Source: Methanoregula sp. (lineage in GTDB: Archaea; Halobacteriota; Methanomicrobia; Methanomicrobiales; Methanospirillaceae). From it: DNA of 64,000 nt. The stretch is taken from contig NZ_JAJRCG010000001.1 in NCBI RefSeq assembly GCF_028679125.1, positions 1-64,000 on the forward strand, in the 5' to 3' direction. This document shows positions 1,416 to 17,262 of this stretch, piece by piece. The stretch's first letter is position 1, and each line of letters opens with the position of its first letter. Both the position numbers and the translations under genes were made by a program. The notes under the pieces were generated by a model that saw nothing but the letters and a program-made list of their open reading frames with translations, had not been told where the DNA came from and did not search any database.

Positions 1416-1552
1416 ATGCTATCCGCCGGAACATTCCCGTGTGCATTTGCCCGTTGAAATTGCAGACCCTATTTTATGAGGATTACTCTTACGTTCACTC
1501 TGTGTATGAATCATTCTTATAGAAATACCGGGTGATAGTAGGGTGGATACCC

Positions 1553-5653: not shown

Positions 5654-5676
5654 ATTGCGGCAATAGTTGCCGCAAT
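5654..5676. promoter_or_regulatory. Perfect palindrome, possible operator
   Basis: ATTGCGGCAA and TTGCCGCAAT are perfect 10-bp arms separated by TAG. It lies about 45 bases before a TATA-like element (tatttatg, 5724-5731) that probably drives the leader peptide and transsulfuration genes. The same 10-base half-site recurs near 12963 (before divergent genes) and near 18795 (before the CoA ligase). Confidence 0.4.
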
Positions 5677-5810: not shown

Positions 5811-5930
5811 ATGAACCAGGTTTCCAGGAACACGAATGCATGGCCTATGCGGCAGTTCGCAGGCGTACGCCAGCAGTCGTTACTCAGCCTTCCCTATTTT
5901 GATATGATCTTCTTCCCGTGTTGTCGCTGA
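5811..5930 (+). CDS. Putative cysteine leader peptide, 39 aa
   Basis: A short frame with a good SD (aaggaagg at 5798-5805) starts at the ATG at 5811. It ends ...MIFFPCCR, so two adjacent Cys codons (TGT TGT) come one codon before the stop. It precedes the CBS/CysK-type gene by 115 bases, with a GC-rich hairpin (5957-5975) in between. Tandem-Cys leader peptides control cysteine genes by ribosome stalling in mycobacteria; by analogy this could sense Cys-tRNA here. Whether that works in an archaeon is inference. The rest of the peptide has no recognised feature. Confidence 0.5.
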   Translation: MNQVSRNTNAWPMRQFAGVRQQSLLSLPYFDMIFFPCCR

Positions 5931-6045: not shown

Positions 6046-7026
6046 ATGAAATATTACAACAACATCACCGAATTCATCGGCAACACCCCCCTCGTGCGGC
6101 TCGACCGCACTCTCCATCCCGGGACAGCACCGCTCGTGCTCGCCAAGATGGAGAGCCTCAATCCCGGCGGGAGCATCAAGGACCGGACGGCAAAGTCCAT
6201 GCTTGTCCGGGCCGAACAGGCCGGAAAGATCGCCGCAGGAGGCACGGTTGTCGAGCCAACGTCCGGCAACACCGGCGCAGGGATTGCCCAGTTCGCGGCT
6301 TCACGGGGGTACAAGACGGTCTTCACCCTACCGGAGAAGATGAGCAGAGAGAAGGAGATCCTCCTTCGGGCCTATGGCGCGGATGTGATCCGGACCCCCA
6401 CCAACGTGCCGCCGGAAGATGAGCGGAGCTACTACAAAGTGGCCGACCGGGTGGCACGCGAGACGCCCGGATCGTTTGTCCCCAACCAGTTCAAGAACCC
6501 CGACAACCCGGCTGCCCACTACACGACAACCGGCCCGGAGATCTGGCGCGATACCGATGGCAGAGTCACGCACTTTGTCGCAGGTATCGGGACCGGGGGA
6601 ACGATCTCGGGCACCGGGCGGTACCTCAAGGAGAAGAATCCCGATATCAAAATCATCGGGGTCGATCCGGAGGGCTCGATCTACCACCACACATTCTATG
6701 GTACGGAGCCCGAGACCGGGCCGTACAAAGTCGAAGGGACCGGTGAGGATTTCATCCCGGATACCGTGGACCTCAGCGTTGTGGACGATATCATCGTTGT
6801 CGGAGATGCGGATGCGTTCCGGATGACCCGCAGGCTTGCACGGGAAGAGGGTCTTCTCGTTGGCGGGACCGCGGGGGCGTCAGCCTTCGCGGCAGTCGGC
6901 CTGGCCCGCACGCTGAAAAAGGACGACGTTGTCGTCGTCCTCTTCCCGGATACGGGCAGGAATTACCTCTCCACGATCTTCAATGACGAGTGGATGAAGA
7001 CGAACGGATTCGGGGACGTGATCTGA
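6046..7026 (+). CDS. Cystathionine beta-synthase / cysteine synthase family enzyme
   Basis: PLP fold-type II enzyme, 326 aa. The PLP lysine is K45 in NPGGSIKDR, the phosphate-cup is SGNTG at 73-77, and GIGTGGTISGTGRYLKEKNP is the conserved glycine loop. Sequence flow (PEKMSREKEILLRAYGA, IIGVDPEGSI, DFIPDTVDLSVVDD, WMKTNGF) is closer to the catalytic core of cystathionine beta-synthases than to plain CysK, and the next gene is a gamma-lyase-type enzyme one base away. The pair looks like an MccA/MccB-type reverse transsulfuration unit making cysteine from homocysteine and (O-acetyl)serine. No heme or CBS regulatory domain is present. Confidence 0.85.
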   Translation: MKYYNNITEFIGNTPLVRLDRTLHPGTAPLVLAKMESLNPGGSIKDRTAKSMLVRAEQAGKIAAGGTVVEPTSGNTGAGIAQFAASRGYKTVFTLPEKMSREKEILLRAYGADVIRTPTNVPPEDERSYYKVADRVARETPGSFVPNQFKNPDNPAAHYTTTGPEIWRDTDGRVTHFVAGIGTGGTISGTGRYLKEKNPDIKIIGVDPEGSIYHHTFYGTEPETGPYKVEGTGEDFIPDTVDLSVVDDIIVVGDADAFRMTRRLAREEGLLVGGTAGASAFAAVGLARTLKKDDVVVVLFPDTGRNYLSTIFNDEWMKTNGFGDVI

Positions 7027-11156: not shown

Positions 11157-11813
11157 TTAGTTTGCCGGCATCTTCTTTACGGAGCATCCGGCGTTCGTGC
11201 ACTGGGACATGCACTGGGGGAGCATCATCTGGATCTCGCAGAGTGCTTTCTTCATGCGGGACTCCGAGCATTTGGACGCCATAGCCGGCATCTTCATGCA
11301 TTCAGTTTCCATGCACTGGGACATGCACTTCGTGATCATCATCTGCATCCCGCTCATGGATTTCATCAGGGAGGAGCCCATGCACATCGAGTCCATGCGC
11401 TTGGCATCCATGCATCCTGCATCCATGCACATGGCGTCCATATGACGGGAGATCATCATCTGCATCTCGCTCATGCACGCCATGGTGGGGGCGTCCATGC
11501 ACCTGTTGTCCATGCACGTCTTCATCATCATGGTGAGGCCCTTCATGGACTTCATCATGGATGCGTCCATGCTCGCGGTGTTCATGCAGTCTGTCATCAT
11601 CATGGAAAGATCCTTCATGGACTTCATCATGGTGGCGTTCATCTGCATAGGTTCCATTGATCGGGCGGTCATGCACTGCGCCATGCACTGGGACATGACA
11701 GCCTGGAAATCACAGACCGCCTTCTCCATACGCATGTCCATACACTTTGCTGCAGTCATCATGGCCGTCTCGCTACAACCATCGCTGTGTTTAGCACCTG
11801 CTGACTTCATCAT
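11157..11813 (-). CDS. Met/Cys-rich repeat protein, possible metal store
   Basis: By my count 56 of 218 residues are Met and 20 are Cys. The sequence is made of about six degenerate helical repeats with a core like MMKSMKxLxMMMxxCMxxC; clear copies include MMKSMKDLSMMMTDCM and MMKSMKGLTMMMKTCMD. Only one Phe and no Trp or Tyr are present. No signal peptide is seen, so it is probably cytosolic. The dense CxxxC and MxxM spacing suggests binding of a soft metal such as Cu(I), by analogy with Cys-lined copper-storage bundles, but no family is recognised. A frame runs back to a GTG at 11864; I chose the ATG at 11813 because a TATA-like element near 11868 and a palindrome at 11832 lie just upstream. 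Confidence 0.65.
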   Translation of the reverse strand: MMKSAGAKHSDGCSETAMMTAAKCMDMRMEKAVCDFQAVMSQCMAQCMTARSMEPMQMNATMMKSMKDLSMMMTDCMNTASMDASMMKSMKGLTMMMKTCMDNRCMDAPTMACMSEMQMMISRHMDAMCMDAGCMDAKRMDSMCMGSSLMKSMSGMQMMITKCMSQCMETECMKMPAMASKCSESRMKKALCEIQMMLPQCMSQCTNAGCSVKKMPAN

Positions 11814-11831
11814 GGTCAATCGTATCCTGCG

Positions 11832-11847
11832 GGCAGGAACTCCTGCC
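11832..11847. promoter_or_regulatory. Palindrome at the Met/Cys-rich gene promoter
   Basis: GGCAGGA and TCCTGCC form perfect 7-bp arms around AC. The site would cover the predicted transcription start (about 25 bases from the TATA-like ttatat near 11868), so it is a good candidate operator for a metal-responsive repressor. Confidence 0.45.
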
Positions 11848-12009
11848 GCAACAGGCATATTCACGATATAATTGCTAAATAGGTCTCATTTCAGCAATTT
11901 TTGTCGGGATGATCACAATCCGGGGAAATAGCGGAAAGAATCATGCACTATTGTACTGTCTTCCGTCAGGGTAACGGAATGGTTTTAGGGATTTTCCCCA
12001 AAAAAGAGA

Positions 12010-12873: not shown

Positions 12874-13104
12874 GATCCTTCACTCCTTTCAGCATCAGGC
12901 CGGAGAAGCCCGGCTCTATCAGAAGTGATCAGTATGTCTGCCTGCGCCAGTATCCATGTGGGGATTGCGGCAATTGTTGCCTCTTGTTCGGGGGTGAGGG
13001 AGATTCAGTCTGCATTCTTGATCTGCGACGTACGGTCATCGTCTTCTGGGTAACTCTTACCGTTTTCTGCTCCTTTTTATGGGTACGGGAACAAGTGATC
13101 CTGT

Positions 13105-13863: not shown

Positions 13864-15516
13864 TCACCTCATGATCACTGCATGGTCCGATCCTGTTCCT
13901 GTGGGGAGGGCTACCTCCTCGTTGCTGCGGATGGTCATCCGGCTCCCGTTCCGGGGGACGACCATCTCGAATCGTGCTCCTTTTCCCGGAGAACCGTTCT
14001 CAGAAATGGAGATGCCGGTGATGGAAAGGATCTCCCGCACGAGGAACAGGCCCTGCCCGGTGTGCTTTCCATACCCCTGCTCGAAGATCCGCTCCTTCAG
14101 GTGATCCGCCACACCAATCCCGTCATCCTCGCAGATGAGGATATGGCCATCAGGAATATCCTGCGTGTGGAACCGGATCGTGCTGATGGTTTCCCCGTAC
14201 CGTATCGCATTGTCGAGAAGGTTATACACGGCCTTCTCAAACAGGGGATCGGCATAGATCTCCGTATCCGGGACATTTATGACGATGGCGATATCCCGGT
14301 GATCAACCTGTGCACCGGCACGCTCCACGACTTCCACGACATTCTGCCACTGGGGTGACTGAACCCCTATGGTCTGGTATTCCCGGGTAAAGGTGATCTG
14401 CTCCTGGATCTTCCGGGTCGAACCCTTGATCTCGCTGAGCAGCTCCCTTGCCTCCCGGTTGTCTATGATGTCGAGTGCCATGTCCTCCAGACCGAGCAGC
14501 CCGGCTACGGTGTTGAGAATGTCGTGCCGGATGATATTGTTCAGCAGGTTCAGTTTGTTGTTCGCCGAGCGGAGTGCATTACCCATCTGTTTGAGTTCAG
14601 TGATATCCTGCTCCCGCTCCATGAGTTCGAGTGCAATAGAAATATTGTCGGTCAGCTCAAGGAGCAGCTGCACCTCTTCCTCATCGAAGAACCGAGGTTC
14701 CCTGGCATAAAACGTCATGGCGCCGATCACCCGTTCCCCGACGCGGAGCGGAAACGCTGCGCTCGACCGGAACCCGGATACCGACACCCGGTCCTTCCAG
14801 GGTGCGAACTGCGGATCTTCGCGGGTATCCGCGATGACATTATACCGTCCCTCGGTTATGGCAACACGGGTGGGTGGGGCATCCAGCGGCAATATCTCGC
14901 CCGGTTCCGAAGGTGGCAGGGAAGGATCGCCCACGCTGCTGCAATGGGCAACAGCCTCGAACGAATCCGGCTCAGACCCGATCAGTCCCGCCCAGACCAT
15001 GAGAAATCCCCCGTCCCTGACAGCAATCTGGCAGACTTCCGCGAGCAGGGCAGTCCGGTCACGGATATATGCCGCAGCCTCGTTGGTCCGGGAGAGGACC
15101 GCATAAAGGCGGGCGAGGTGCTTGATCTGTTCAGCGGACTGCCGGCGCTGGACTGCAGCCCGGAGTTTGTGGGAGAGTTCGGCAAACTGGGATTTGGGCT
15201 CCCCGCCTTTCTGGAGGTAAAAGTCCACGCCGTTGTTCAGGGCCTCGACGACGACATCCTCCCGGCCCCTGCCGGTAAAGATGATAAACGGGAGGGTCGG
15301 GTAGCGTGAACGCACTTCCTTGAGGAACTGGATGCCGTTCATCTCCGGCATGTCATAATCCGAGAGGACTGCGTGGTACGATACCTGTTCAAGGCGCTCC
15401 AGCGCCTCCGGGCCCGAGTTGCAGGTCTCAACGGAGAAATTCCCTATCTTTTCCAGAAAGATCTTCCCGAGATCCCGCAGGGCAGGATCGTCGTCAACGT
15501 AAAGGACGGATATCAT
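13864..15516 (-). CDS. Hybrid sensor: receiver-GAF-histidine kinase
   Basis: A 550-aa protein. Residues 1-120 are a receiver domain with phospho-acceptor D53 (LSDYDMPEMNG) and K in YLQKGG. Residues ~140-310 form a GAF-like sensor. The phospho-accepting helix has RHDILN near 330, and the ATPase has NLLDNAIRYGE near 434 and CEDDGIGVAD near 466. No membrane segment, so it is a cytosolic relay kinase of a type common in methanogens. A GTG at 15525 is in frame, but the ATG at 15516 matches the start of its paralogue. It sits between its paralogue (15658) and a single-domain regulator (13492). Confidence 0.87.
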   Translation of the reverse strand: MISVLYVDDDPALRDLGKIFLEKIGNFSVETCNSGPEALERLEQVSYHAVLSDYDMPEMNGIQFLKEVRSRYPTLPFIIFTGRGREDVVVEALNNGVDFYLQKGGEPKSQFAELSHKLRAAVQRRQSAEQIKHLARLYAVLSRTNEAAAYIRDRTALLAEVCQIAVRDGGFLMVWAGLIGSEPDSFEAVAHCSSVGDPSLPPSEPGEILPLDAPPTRVAITEGRYNVIADTREDPQFAPWKDRVSVSGFRSSAAFPLRVGERVIGAMTFYAREPRFFDEEEVQLLLELTDNISIALELMEREQDITELKQMGNALRSANNKLNLLNNIIRHDILNTVAGLLGLEDMALDIIDNREARELLSEIKGSTRKIQEQITFTREYQTIGVQSPQWQNVVEVVERAGAQVDHRDIAIVINVPDTEIYADPLFEKAVYNLLDNAIRYGETISTIRFHTQDIPDGHILICEDDGIGVADHLKERIFEQGYGKHTGQGLFLVREILSITGISISENGSPGKGARFEMVVPRNGSRMTIRSNEEVALPTGTGSDHAVIMR

Positions 15517-15657
15517 GGTGGTCACGTGTGGTGGTGGTATGTCTGGTGTGTGCTGGTCGTGCTGGTGGATGACGCGCTGACGGGAGCGGGGCCATCTGTA
15601 CGGATTGTTACGTCCCCGGGACCCCCGGAAGATGAATTGATGGATGAAACCGGGTGA

Positions 15658-17262
15658 TCATAAGATCCCCTGCTGGAAAGGAACCCTGAATTTTTCGTTT
15701 GGTATGATGATCTCGAATCGTGCACCGGTCCCGGATATCCCGGTCTCCCGGATAAGAATCCCGGTTATTGCGAGGATCTCGCGGGAGAGGAAGAGGCCAA
15801 AACCGGTATTTTTGAAGAATTTCCGGTTGAAAATATTCTCTTTTTCTGCATCCGGTATCCCGCCCCCGTTATCCTCGCAGGTGATGATGAGCCCGCTGTC
15901 TGATTCCCGTGCAGAGAAGTGGATCCGGGAGACATTCATCCCGTGGTTCCTGGCGTTCTCGAGCAGGTTGAAGAATACCTTTTCCAGCAGGGGATCGGCA
16001 AATATCTCGATGGATTGCAGATCCGACCGGATCTTCACCTGTCCCATGCTGGCCGTGCGAGAAGCCCGTTCAACAATATCCTGAACATTCTGCCAGAGGG
16101 GGGCATGGACGCCGATATTCTGGTATTCCCGGGTGAAACTGATCTGCTGGCGGATGCTCTCAAGAGCCCTTTCTTCTTTCTGGATATATTCGAGTACGTC
16201 CGGGTCGGTTGTCTGCATCCGTGCGAGTTCGATATATCCCCCGAGGGCCGTGAGCTGGTTCAGGGTGTCGTGCCTTGTTATGTTGGAGAGCAGGTTGAGT
16301 TTCTTGTTTGCCAGCTGGAGAGCATCGCTCAGCTGGATCAGCTTGGTGATCAGGTACTCTTTTTCCATCAGTTCCAGGGCGAGCGACAGGGTGTCGGTCA
16401 GTTCAACGAGCAGCTGTACCTCCTCCTCGCTGAAGAATCCGGTTTCCTGGGCGTTGAATATCATCACCCCGATCACCTGGTCGCCGACCCGGAGGGGGAA
16501 TGCTGCGCTGGATCCGATGCCATGCGCAGCGAGACTTCCCGCCCAGGGTGCCAGGAGCGGATCGTGGCGGTTGTCGGTGCTGGCGTAATAAATGCCCTTG
16601 CCGATGACAATCTCCTTGAGGGCAGATCCAAGCGCCAGAAGGTCCTCTGCGCTGACGGGAGGGTACCCGGTATCATCGGTCCTGCAGTACCAGGCCTCCG
16701 GTTCAAAGCAGCCGTTGTCATAGCGGAAAAGCCCGATCCATGCACTCAGGAAACTCCCGTCAGCAACGACAATGCGGCAGACCTCTTCAAGCAGCGCCTT
16801 CCTGTTACGGAGACTGGCTGATGCCGCATTGGTCTGCGAAATGATCCGGTAGAGGCGTGCGAGATGTGCGGTCCTGCGGGCAGACATGCGGCGTTCGACA
16901 GCGGCCCGTATCTGGTGTGCCAGTTCCCCGTACTGTGTTGTTGGATCCCTGCCTTTTTGCCGGTAATGATCCGCCCCGCCGTTCAGTGCATCGATGACGG
17001 CATCCCCCGAATACGTCCTGGCAAAGAACAGGACCGGAAGCAGGGGCGATATTCTCCTGACCTCCCGGAGAAGCCGGGAACCGTCAATGTCCGGCGGGCA
17101 GTTCTCAGACAGTATTGCATCATAGGTTGTATGCCGGAGCCGTTCGCGTGCTTCTGTATCCGAGCGGCAGGTCTCTACCGAGAGAAACCCGGATTCTTCG
17201 AGCAGGGTTCTGCCTGCCTGGAGAAGTTCCGGGTCATCGTCGATATAGAGTACTGATATCAT
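15658..17262 (-). CDS. Paralogous hybrid sensor kinase with degenerate receiver
   Basis: A 534-aa paralogue of the 13864 product with the same receiver-GAF-kinase order. The kinase is intact: RHDTLN in the H-box, NLLENARNHG in the N-box and CEDNGGGIPDAE in the G1 box. The receiver differs: the position of the phospho-acceptor is Glu (LSENCPP, E53) where the paralogue has Asp, and the neighbouring acidic residue is also changed. Glu at this site often mimics phosphorylation, so this receiver may be locked or structural. The 130 bases before the downstream kinase are TGG-rich. Confidence 0.85.
   Translation of the reverse strand: MISVLYIDDDPELLQAGRTLLEESGFLSVETCRSDTEARERLRHTTYDAILSENCPPDIDGSRLLREVRRISPLLPVLFFARTYSGDAVIDALNGGADHYRQKGRDPTTQYGELAHQIRAAVERRMSARRTAHLARLYRIISQTNAASASLRNRKALLEEVCRIVVADGSFLSAWIGLFRYDNGCFEPEAWYCRTDDTGYPPVSAEDLLALGSALKEIVIGKGIYYASTDNRHDPLLAPWAGSLAAHGIGSSAAFPLRVGDQVIGVMIFNAQETGFFSEEEVQLLVELTDTLSLALELMEKEYLITKLIQLSDALQLANKKLNLLSNITRHDTLNQLTALGGYIELARMQTTDPDVLEYIQKEERALESIRQQISFTREYQNIGVHAPLWQNVQDIVERASRTASMGQVKIRSDLQSIEIFADPLLEKVFFNLLENARNHGMNVSRIHFSARESDSGLIITCEDNGGGIPDAEKENIFNRKFFKNTGFGLFLSREILAITGILIRETGISGTGARFEIIIPNEKFRVPFQQGIL

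Follow-up and report, generated by a model that had tools for sequence, protein, structure and literature searches.

A narrowly distributed Met/Cys repeat protein of the Methanoregulaceae and its possible role in soft-metal binding

The question raised by this locus is whether an open reading frame of extreme Met and Cys content is a gene at all and, if it is, what its sulfur-bearing side chains are for. The window (the whole 64,000-nt stretch of Methanoregula sp. contig NZ_JAJRCG010000001.1) encodes on its minus strand, at 11157..11813 (ATG at 11813, stop at 11159-11157), a protein of 218 aa built from 24-residue repeats. It contains 56 Met and 20 Cys residues (25.7% and 9.2%), confirming the 26% and 9% given in a preliminary description of the sequence, and is devoid of Trp and Tyr. 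The combined Met and Cys content of 37 other genes in the window averages 4.0%, with a maximum of 9.3%.

Reading frame and homologues

The preliminary description had proposed a search for homologues, and among 108 genomes of the family (Methanoregulaceae) three were found, with 52-66% identity to the window protein. The nearest, of 247 aa, is encoded by a Lac Pavin Methanoregula metagenome-assembled genome (JAPKXU010000191, here G055); the other two, of 311 and 312 aa, are found in genomes G072 and G034, which we take to be Methanosphaerula palustris E1-9c and Methanoregula boonei 6A8, respectively. Between the window gene and its G055 homologue, pS is 0.59 and pN 0.18 (dS 1.14, dN 0.21, omega 0.18), and omega ranges from 0.16 to 0.33 over all six pairs of the four homologues. 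When the identical differences between the window and G055 are read in the antisense register, omega is about 1.15, and antisense values across pairs range from 0.6 to 1.2. Stops break every antisense frame in the window and in G055; one antisense frame is open by chance in M. boonei, though none of the three other genomes has the corresponding frame open. The antisense stops and the antisense omega of about 1 rule out the His-rich frame of the opposite strand as the true gene, and with it the opposite-strand coding that the preliminary description had named as a possible refutation. Third codon positions had been described as mostly G/C, and GC3 at non-Met codons is indeed 0.75, as in neighbouring genes. 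The minus-strand gene is real, as attested by its homologues, its dN/dS ratios, a frame open in four genomes and the conservation of its Met and Cys residues.

Longer in-frame starts are available at 11858 and 11864. The start at 11813 is preferred because the ATG of the G055 gene lies downstream of a hairpin of its own (see below), and the sequence before that ATG is unlike the N-terminal extension that the longer starts would give the window protein.

Distribution and history

Across the class (232 genomes) the gene is confined to these four, and a 393-genome sample of the phylum yielded no further members; weak matches there (E 0.01-0.07) were rejected as unrelated simple repeats or as proteins not rich in Met and Cys. 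The GTDB contig collection, scanned with only two peptide patterns that could miss diverged members, gave G055 as the sole match. The preliminary description knew of no described family of such make-up, and no relative of the protein was found in Pfam, NCBIfam, PHROG or PDB, nor any paper on it in a literature search whose coverage leaves out most subscription papers. We found no described family with 35-44% Met plus Cys in a fixed helical register. The four proteins make up an undescribed family of narrow distribution, marked by an extreme Met/Cys repeat that is under selection.

For M. boonei and M. palustris, which belong to different genera, identity is 74% in this protein and 56% in HgcA; for M. 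boonei and the window organism, of the same genus, it is 53% and 60%, respectively. This pattern fits horizontal transfer within the family, though selection that holds Met and Cys in place could be part of the cause. A viral, plasmid or phage origin was dropped, no matches having been found. The M. palustris homologue has a TGA at the site of a Cys codon that is conserved in the window and G055 (IPQ-TGA-MSSCMDMEC, L003 about 1528-1533, minus strand), and the frame past it is still similar to the homologues. Selenocysteine at this position was ruled out, as the SepSecS model TIGR03531 is absent from all four genomes while the control, M. jannaschii, was positive; since no Sec machinery was found, the TGA is probably a C-terminal truncation.

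Repeat architecture and selection on Met and Cys

Self-identity is highest at a lag of 24 residues in all four homologues. Together they yielded 29 units, of which 27 are complete and serve for the position counts. The unit consensus is (D)-A-S-M-M-K-S-M-x-D-[C/L]-M-M-M-M-S-x-C-M-x-x-K-C-M. Lys occupies position 2 in 26 of the 27 units, Met position 4 in 24 and Asp position 6 in 18; position 7 is Cys in 14 and Leu in 10; Met is found at positions 9, 10 and 11 in 20, 25 and 21 units, respectively, and at position 15 in 24. Position 14 is Cys in 24 of 27 units, with His, another metal ligand, in two of the three exceptions. Polar residues fall at positions 2, 6, 12, 13 and 16, and the sulfur positions 4, 7, 11 and 14 are set 3-4 residues apart, like the core positions of a helical bundle, giving a heptad-like sulfur face. 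The polar helical moment lies above that of shuffled sequences, with z of 3.8 and 4.5 in the two long homologues, 2.3 in the window protein and 1.4 in G055. AlphaFold2 models are all-helical, with six helices in the window protein and about ten in the M. boonei protein, at low confidence (mean pLDDT 40 and 49); a Foldseek search of the low-confidence model against PDB returned nothing below E 7, and no Csp fold emerged from the predictions. The 24-residue lag, the 29 units and the six predicted helices agree with the about six helical repeats of the preliminary description. Three consecutive units in G055 are nearly identical, and copy number therefore changes by tandem duplication.

Between the window protein and G055, 47 of 56 Met and 19 of 20 Cys are identical, together 66/76 as against 78/142 of the other residues (Fisher p 1e-6). 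In the two longer homologues, which are 42% and 44% Met plus Cys, 93 of 99 Met and 31 of 32 Cys are identical between M. boonei and M. palustris, or 124/131 against about 105/178 other residues (p 7e-14). On these comparisons selection keeps Met and Cys by position, beyond mere composition.

This positional constraint bears on a reading of the protein in which no metal is bound: it could be a scaffold, or a structural or phase-forming low-complexity helical protein, or it could present a membrane- or peptide-binding Met surface like that of the SRP M domain. Met-rich amphipathic helices can make flexible hydrophobic grooves, and the helices stand separate in the low-confidence models. The near-invariant Cys at position 14 and its replacement by His in the exceptions are left unexplained by such a role, which we consider distinctly unlikely.

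Upstream region

An inverted repeat, GGCAGGA-GT-TCCTGCC, lies at 11832..11847 on the minus strand and is rare, with 2 copies in the genome. The preliminary description had placed this palindrome over the predicted start and taken it as part of the promoter; it lies instead 19-34 nt upstream of the ATG at 11813, and would fall within the coding frame only under the longer starts at 11858 or 11864. G055 has the same arms around a spacer of 5 nt in place of the 2 nt of the window, and folding z is -2.0 in the window and -3.4 in G055. Because the arms are kept while the spacer differs, the repeat fits better as a hairpin in the 5' untranslated RNA than as a protein operator. As a regulon operator the GGCAGGA palindrome was rejected, since its other copies are placed within coding sequence or at a 3' end, and no Rfam match above chance suggested a riboswitch upstream of the gene.

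Further upstream on the minus strand, a TATA-like element recognized by eye, aattatat, is found at 11866..11873, with an aligned AT-rich element at the same place in G055. Local alignment identified a 34-nt block conserved with G055 at 11923..11956 (minus strand), GTACAATAGT...TTTCCGCTATTT, with a score of 39, where the best of 300 shuffles reached 26. As this block is common to the two genomes although the genes upstream differ (methanogenesis marker 8 in the window, a LolD-type ABC ATPase in G055), the Met/Cys gene probably has its own promoter. Of the "own palindromic promoter" in the preliminary description, then, the separate promoter and the palindrome itself are supported, and a role of the latter as operator over the start is not.

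The region upstream of the G055 homologue (L011:7783-10145, minus strand) encodes a DUF4418 protein with Met/His/Cys motifs, an FtsX permease and the LolD-type ATPase, a set that could possibly form a metal-related ABC exporter. In the window, two adjacent and similar proteins of response-regulator/sensor kinase type, of 553 and 534 aa, are encoded at 13864-17262 (minus strand), apparently a tandem duplication. The genome to which the window belongs encodes a second methanogenesis marker 8 copy, 65% identical to that of the window, at G000:C9:49276-50121, and M. boonei also has two copies.

Neighbouring genes and the CGGCAA palindrome

In the window the gene is accompanied by cysK, two Cys/Met PLP enzymes and cysRS, and in M. 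boonei cysK lies about 2-3 kb from it. The sulfur genes reported beside it are thus genuine in the window, but no neighbourhood is conserved across the four genomes, and no metal-handling gene is consistently adjacent. The M. boonei homologue (L013:7000-8836) is about 0.5 kb from arsR and adjoins hgcA-hgcB, genes of mercury methylation. All four genomes with the Met/Cys gene carry hgcA, which lies elsewhere in the other three and is present in 69 of 108 family genomes; with the placement unrepeated and hgcA so common, a partnership with mercury methylation was dropped as evidence.

A second palindrome, CGGCAA-N3-TTGCC, precedes the start of the Met/Cys gene by about 80-115 nt in both M. boonei and M. 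palustris. In the window, CGACAAAAATTGCTG at 11892..11906 (minus strand) may be a degenerate copy of it, with 2 mismatches to CGGCAA-N3-TTGCCG, and is a lead only. The exact form, CGGCAANANTTGCC, has only two or three copies per genome. In non-coding DNA this exact form precedes the Met/Cys gene in both M. boonei and M. palustris; in the window it precedes cysK, and in M. palustris also the gene of a Cys/Met PLP enzyme and a ThiF/MoeB-like gene. With one mismatch it is found upstream of the M. boonei cysK and, in G055, of an SsuA-like ABC binding protein. The palindrome core is also found upstream of methanogenesis marker 8, with one mismatch in M. palustris (L067:9456) and exactly in the window, where GGCAATTGTTGCC at 12969-12981 is 96 nt upstream of the gene. 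In the 1.25 Mb examined, sites with up to one mismatch number 17 in non-coding and 111 in coding DNA, which is no enrichment outside genes, and several of the loci counted were chosen because of these genes. For these two reasons a sulfur regulon acting through the CGGCAA palindrome is suggested as a lead only.

Two other features are located near the cysK cluster of the window (ATG at 6046). A 21-nt palindrome at 5656-5676, TTGCGGCAA-TAG-TTGCCGCAA, lies between a terminator-like hairpin and the cluster and is a candidate operator. Just upstream of the cluster, at 5811-5930 (plus strand), a 39-aa open reading frame, MNQVSRNTNAWPMRQFAGVRQQSLLSLPYFDMIFFPCCR, ends in Cys-Cys-Arg and looks like a cysteine-sensing leader peptide; no counterpart was found in the other loci examined.

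The cysK, PLP enzyme and cysRS neighbours, the cysK gene near the M. boonei homologue and the CGGCAA-N3-TTGCC sites shared with sulfur-linked genes are what would be expected if the protein were a sulfur amino-acid reserve, holding reduced sulfur as Met and Cys in times of plenty and broken down in times of sulfur scarcity, under the control of a sulfur regulator. It would then be a rare prokaryotic sulfur storage protein. Such a reserve needs a composition and not fixed positions, whereas Cys and Met are conserved here by position in a helical register; as the palindrome sites are not enriched outside genes and the neighbourhood is not conserved, we regard this explanation as unlikely.

A candidate soft-metal binding protein

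The best explanation, to which we assign a probability of roughly 45%, is by analogy that of a cytosolic protein which binds or buffers soft metal, with Cu(I) as the first candidate and Ag(I), Hg(II) and Cd(II) as possible alternatives. The cytosolic location is suggested by the lack of a visible signal peptide. Each 24-residue unit would fold into a single short amphipathic helix carrying Met at positions 0, 1, 4, 8-11 and 15 and Cys at 14 and often also at 5, 7 and 19. These units would pack together into an array of helices, with thiolates and thioethers lining its faces; one chain could thereby hold many d10 metal ions, and its capacity would depend on how many units it has (about 6 to 10). 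We infer the helical packing, the binding of metal, the identity of that metal and a buffering or detoxifying role; a ligand role is favoured over that of a mere sulfur store because Cys and Met are position-specific in the helical register. Against metal binding, Met greatly exceeds Cys, whereas the Csps use Cys, and the window neighbours and possible shared palindrome point to sulfur metabolism.

Comparison with known systems

Metallothioneins resemble the Met/Cys protein in their dense Cys ligands for soft metals but are short, Met-poor and not helical, whereas the proteins described here are 218-312 aa long, with predicted helical 24-residue repeats in which Met dominates. No metallothionein model in Pfam or NCBIfam matched.

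The Met-rich peptides MrpX and BcrX, which scavenge hypochlorite together with a Met sulfoxide reductase (PMC8315932), likewise form Met-rich repeats with Lys after Met (MXKDX repeat, YedYZ/MsrPQ). They are the precedent for a role as oxidant sink, in which Met and Cys would be sacrificed to oxidation and then restored by methionine sulfoxide reductase and thioredoxin, shielding an oxygen-sensitive methanogen. Of the four genomes with the gene, three encode MsrA and G055 (82% complete) yielded none, but relatives without the gene carry MsrA equally, and wherever it was found it lies on another contig or far away. MrpX is periplasmic and linked to its reductase, whereas the Met/Cys protein is also rich in Cys, has no visible signal peptide or linked reductase, and gave no NCBIfam match to MXKDX or any other Met-rich repeat model up to E 10. 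As position-specific Cys would also be unnecessary for such a sink, this is the least probable of the explanations weighed here.

The closest likeness is to Csp3 (DUF326, PF03860), a cytosolic four-helix bundle that holds Cu(I) via helix-borne CXXXC thiolates (PMC5171941), and the preliminary description had thought of a Cys-lined copper-storage bundle with Met in place of many Cys. Shared with Csp3 are a cytosolic location and helices (both predicted here), on one face of which Cys recurs, together with CxxxC motifs and many potential soft-metal ligands in each chain. CxxxC occurs 2-3 times per protein, once near the N-terminal end in all four members, its location in a helix being predicted. 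The similarity does not extend to sequence: hmmscan of the four members against Pfam gave no match to PF03860 up to E 10 (only C_tripleX, at E 5.6, in one member), and a DUF326 profile scan of 8 genomes gave nothing above cut-off. The helical repeats, the retained Cys and Met and the lack of a visible signal peptide fit the idea of a Csp-like protein; the protein is best explained, by analogy, as working like Csp3, with membership in the Csps unsupported. Unlike Csp3, the Met/Cys protein is archaeal, its Met outnumber its Cys about 3:1, and in place of one four-helix bundle it has a 24-residue unit repeated about 6-10 times, with helices predicted at low confidence. That it represents a new kind of metal storage, an archaeal helical array with Met as the main ligand beside thiolates and a capacity that grows by added 24-residue units, is a tentative and rather doubtful proposal. 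If Cu(I) or Hg(II) is bound, the protein could bear on the handling of metals, including mercury, in peatland methanogens. It would then be a soft-metal store of methanogens, in which much of what thiolates do in the Csps falls to thioethers; a Cu(I) site of two Met and two Cys has been described in RkCsp3 (PMC10155185).
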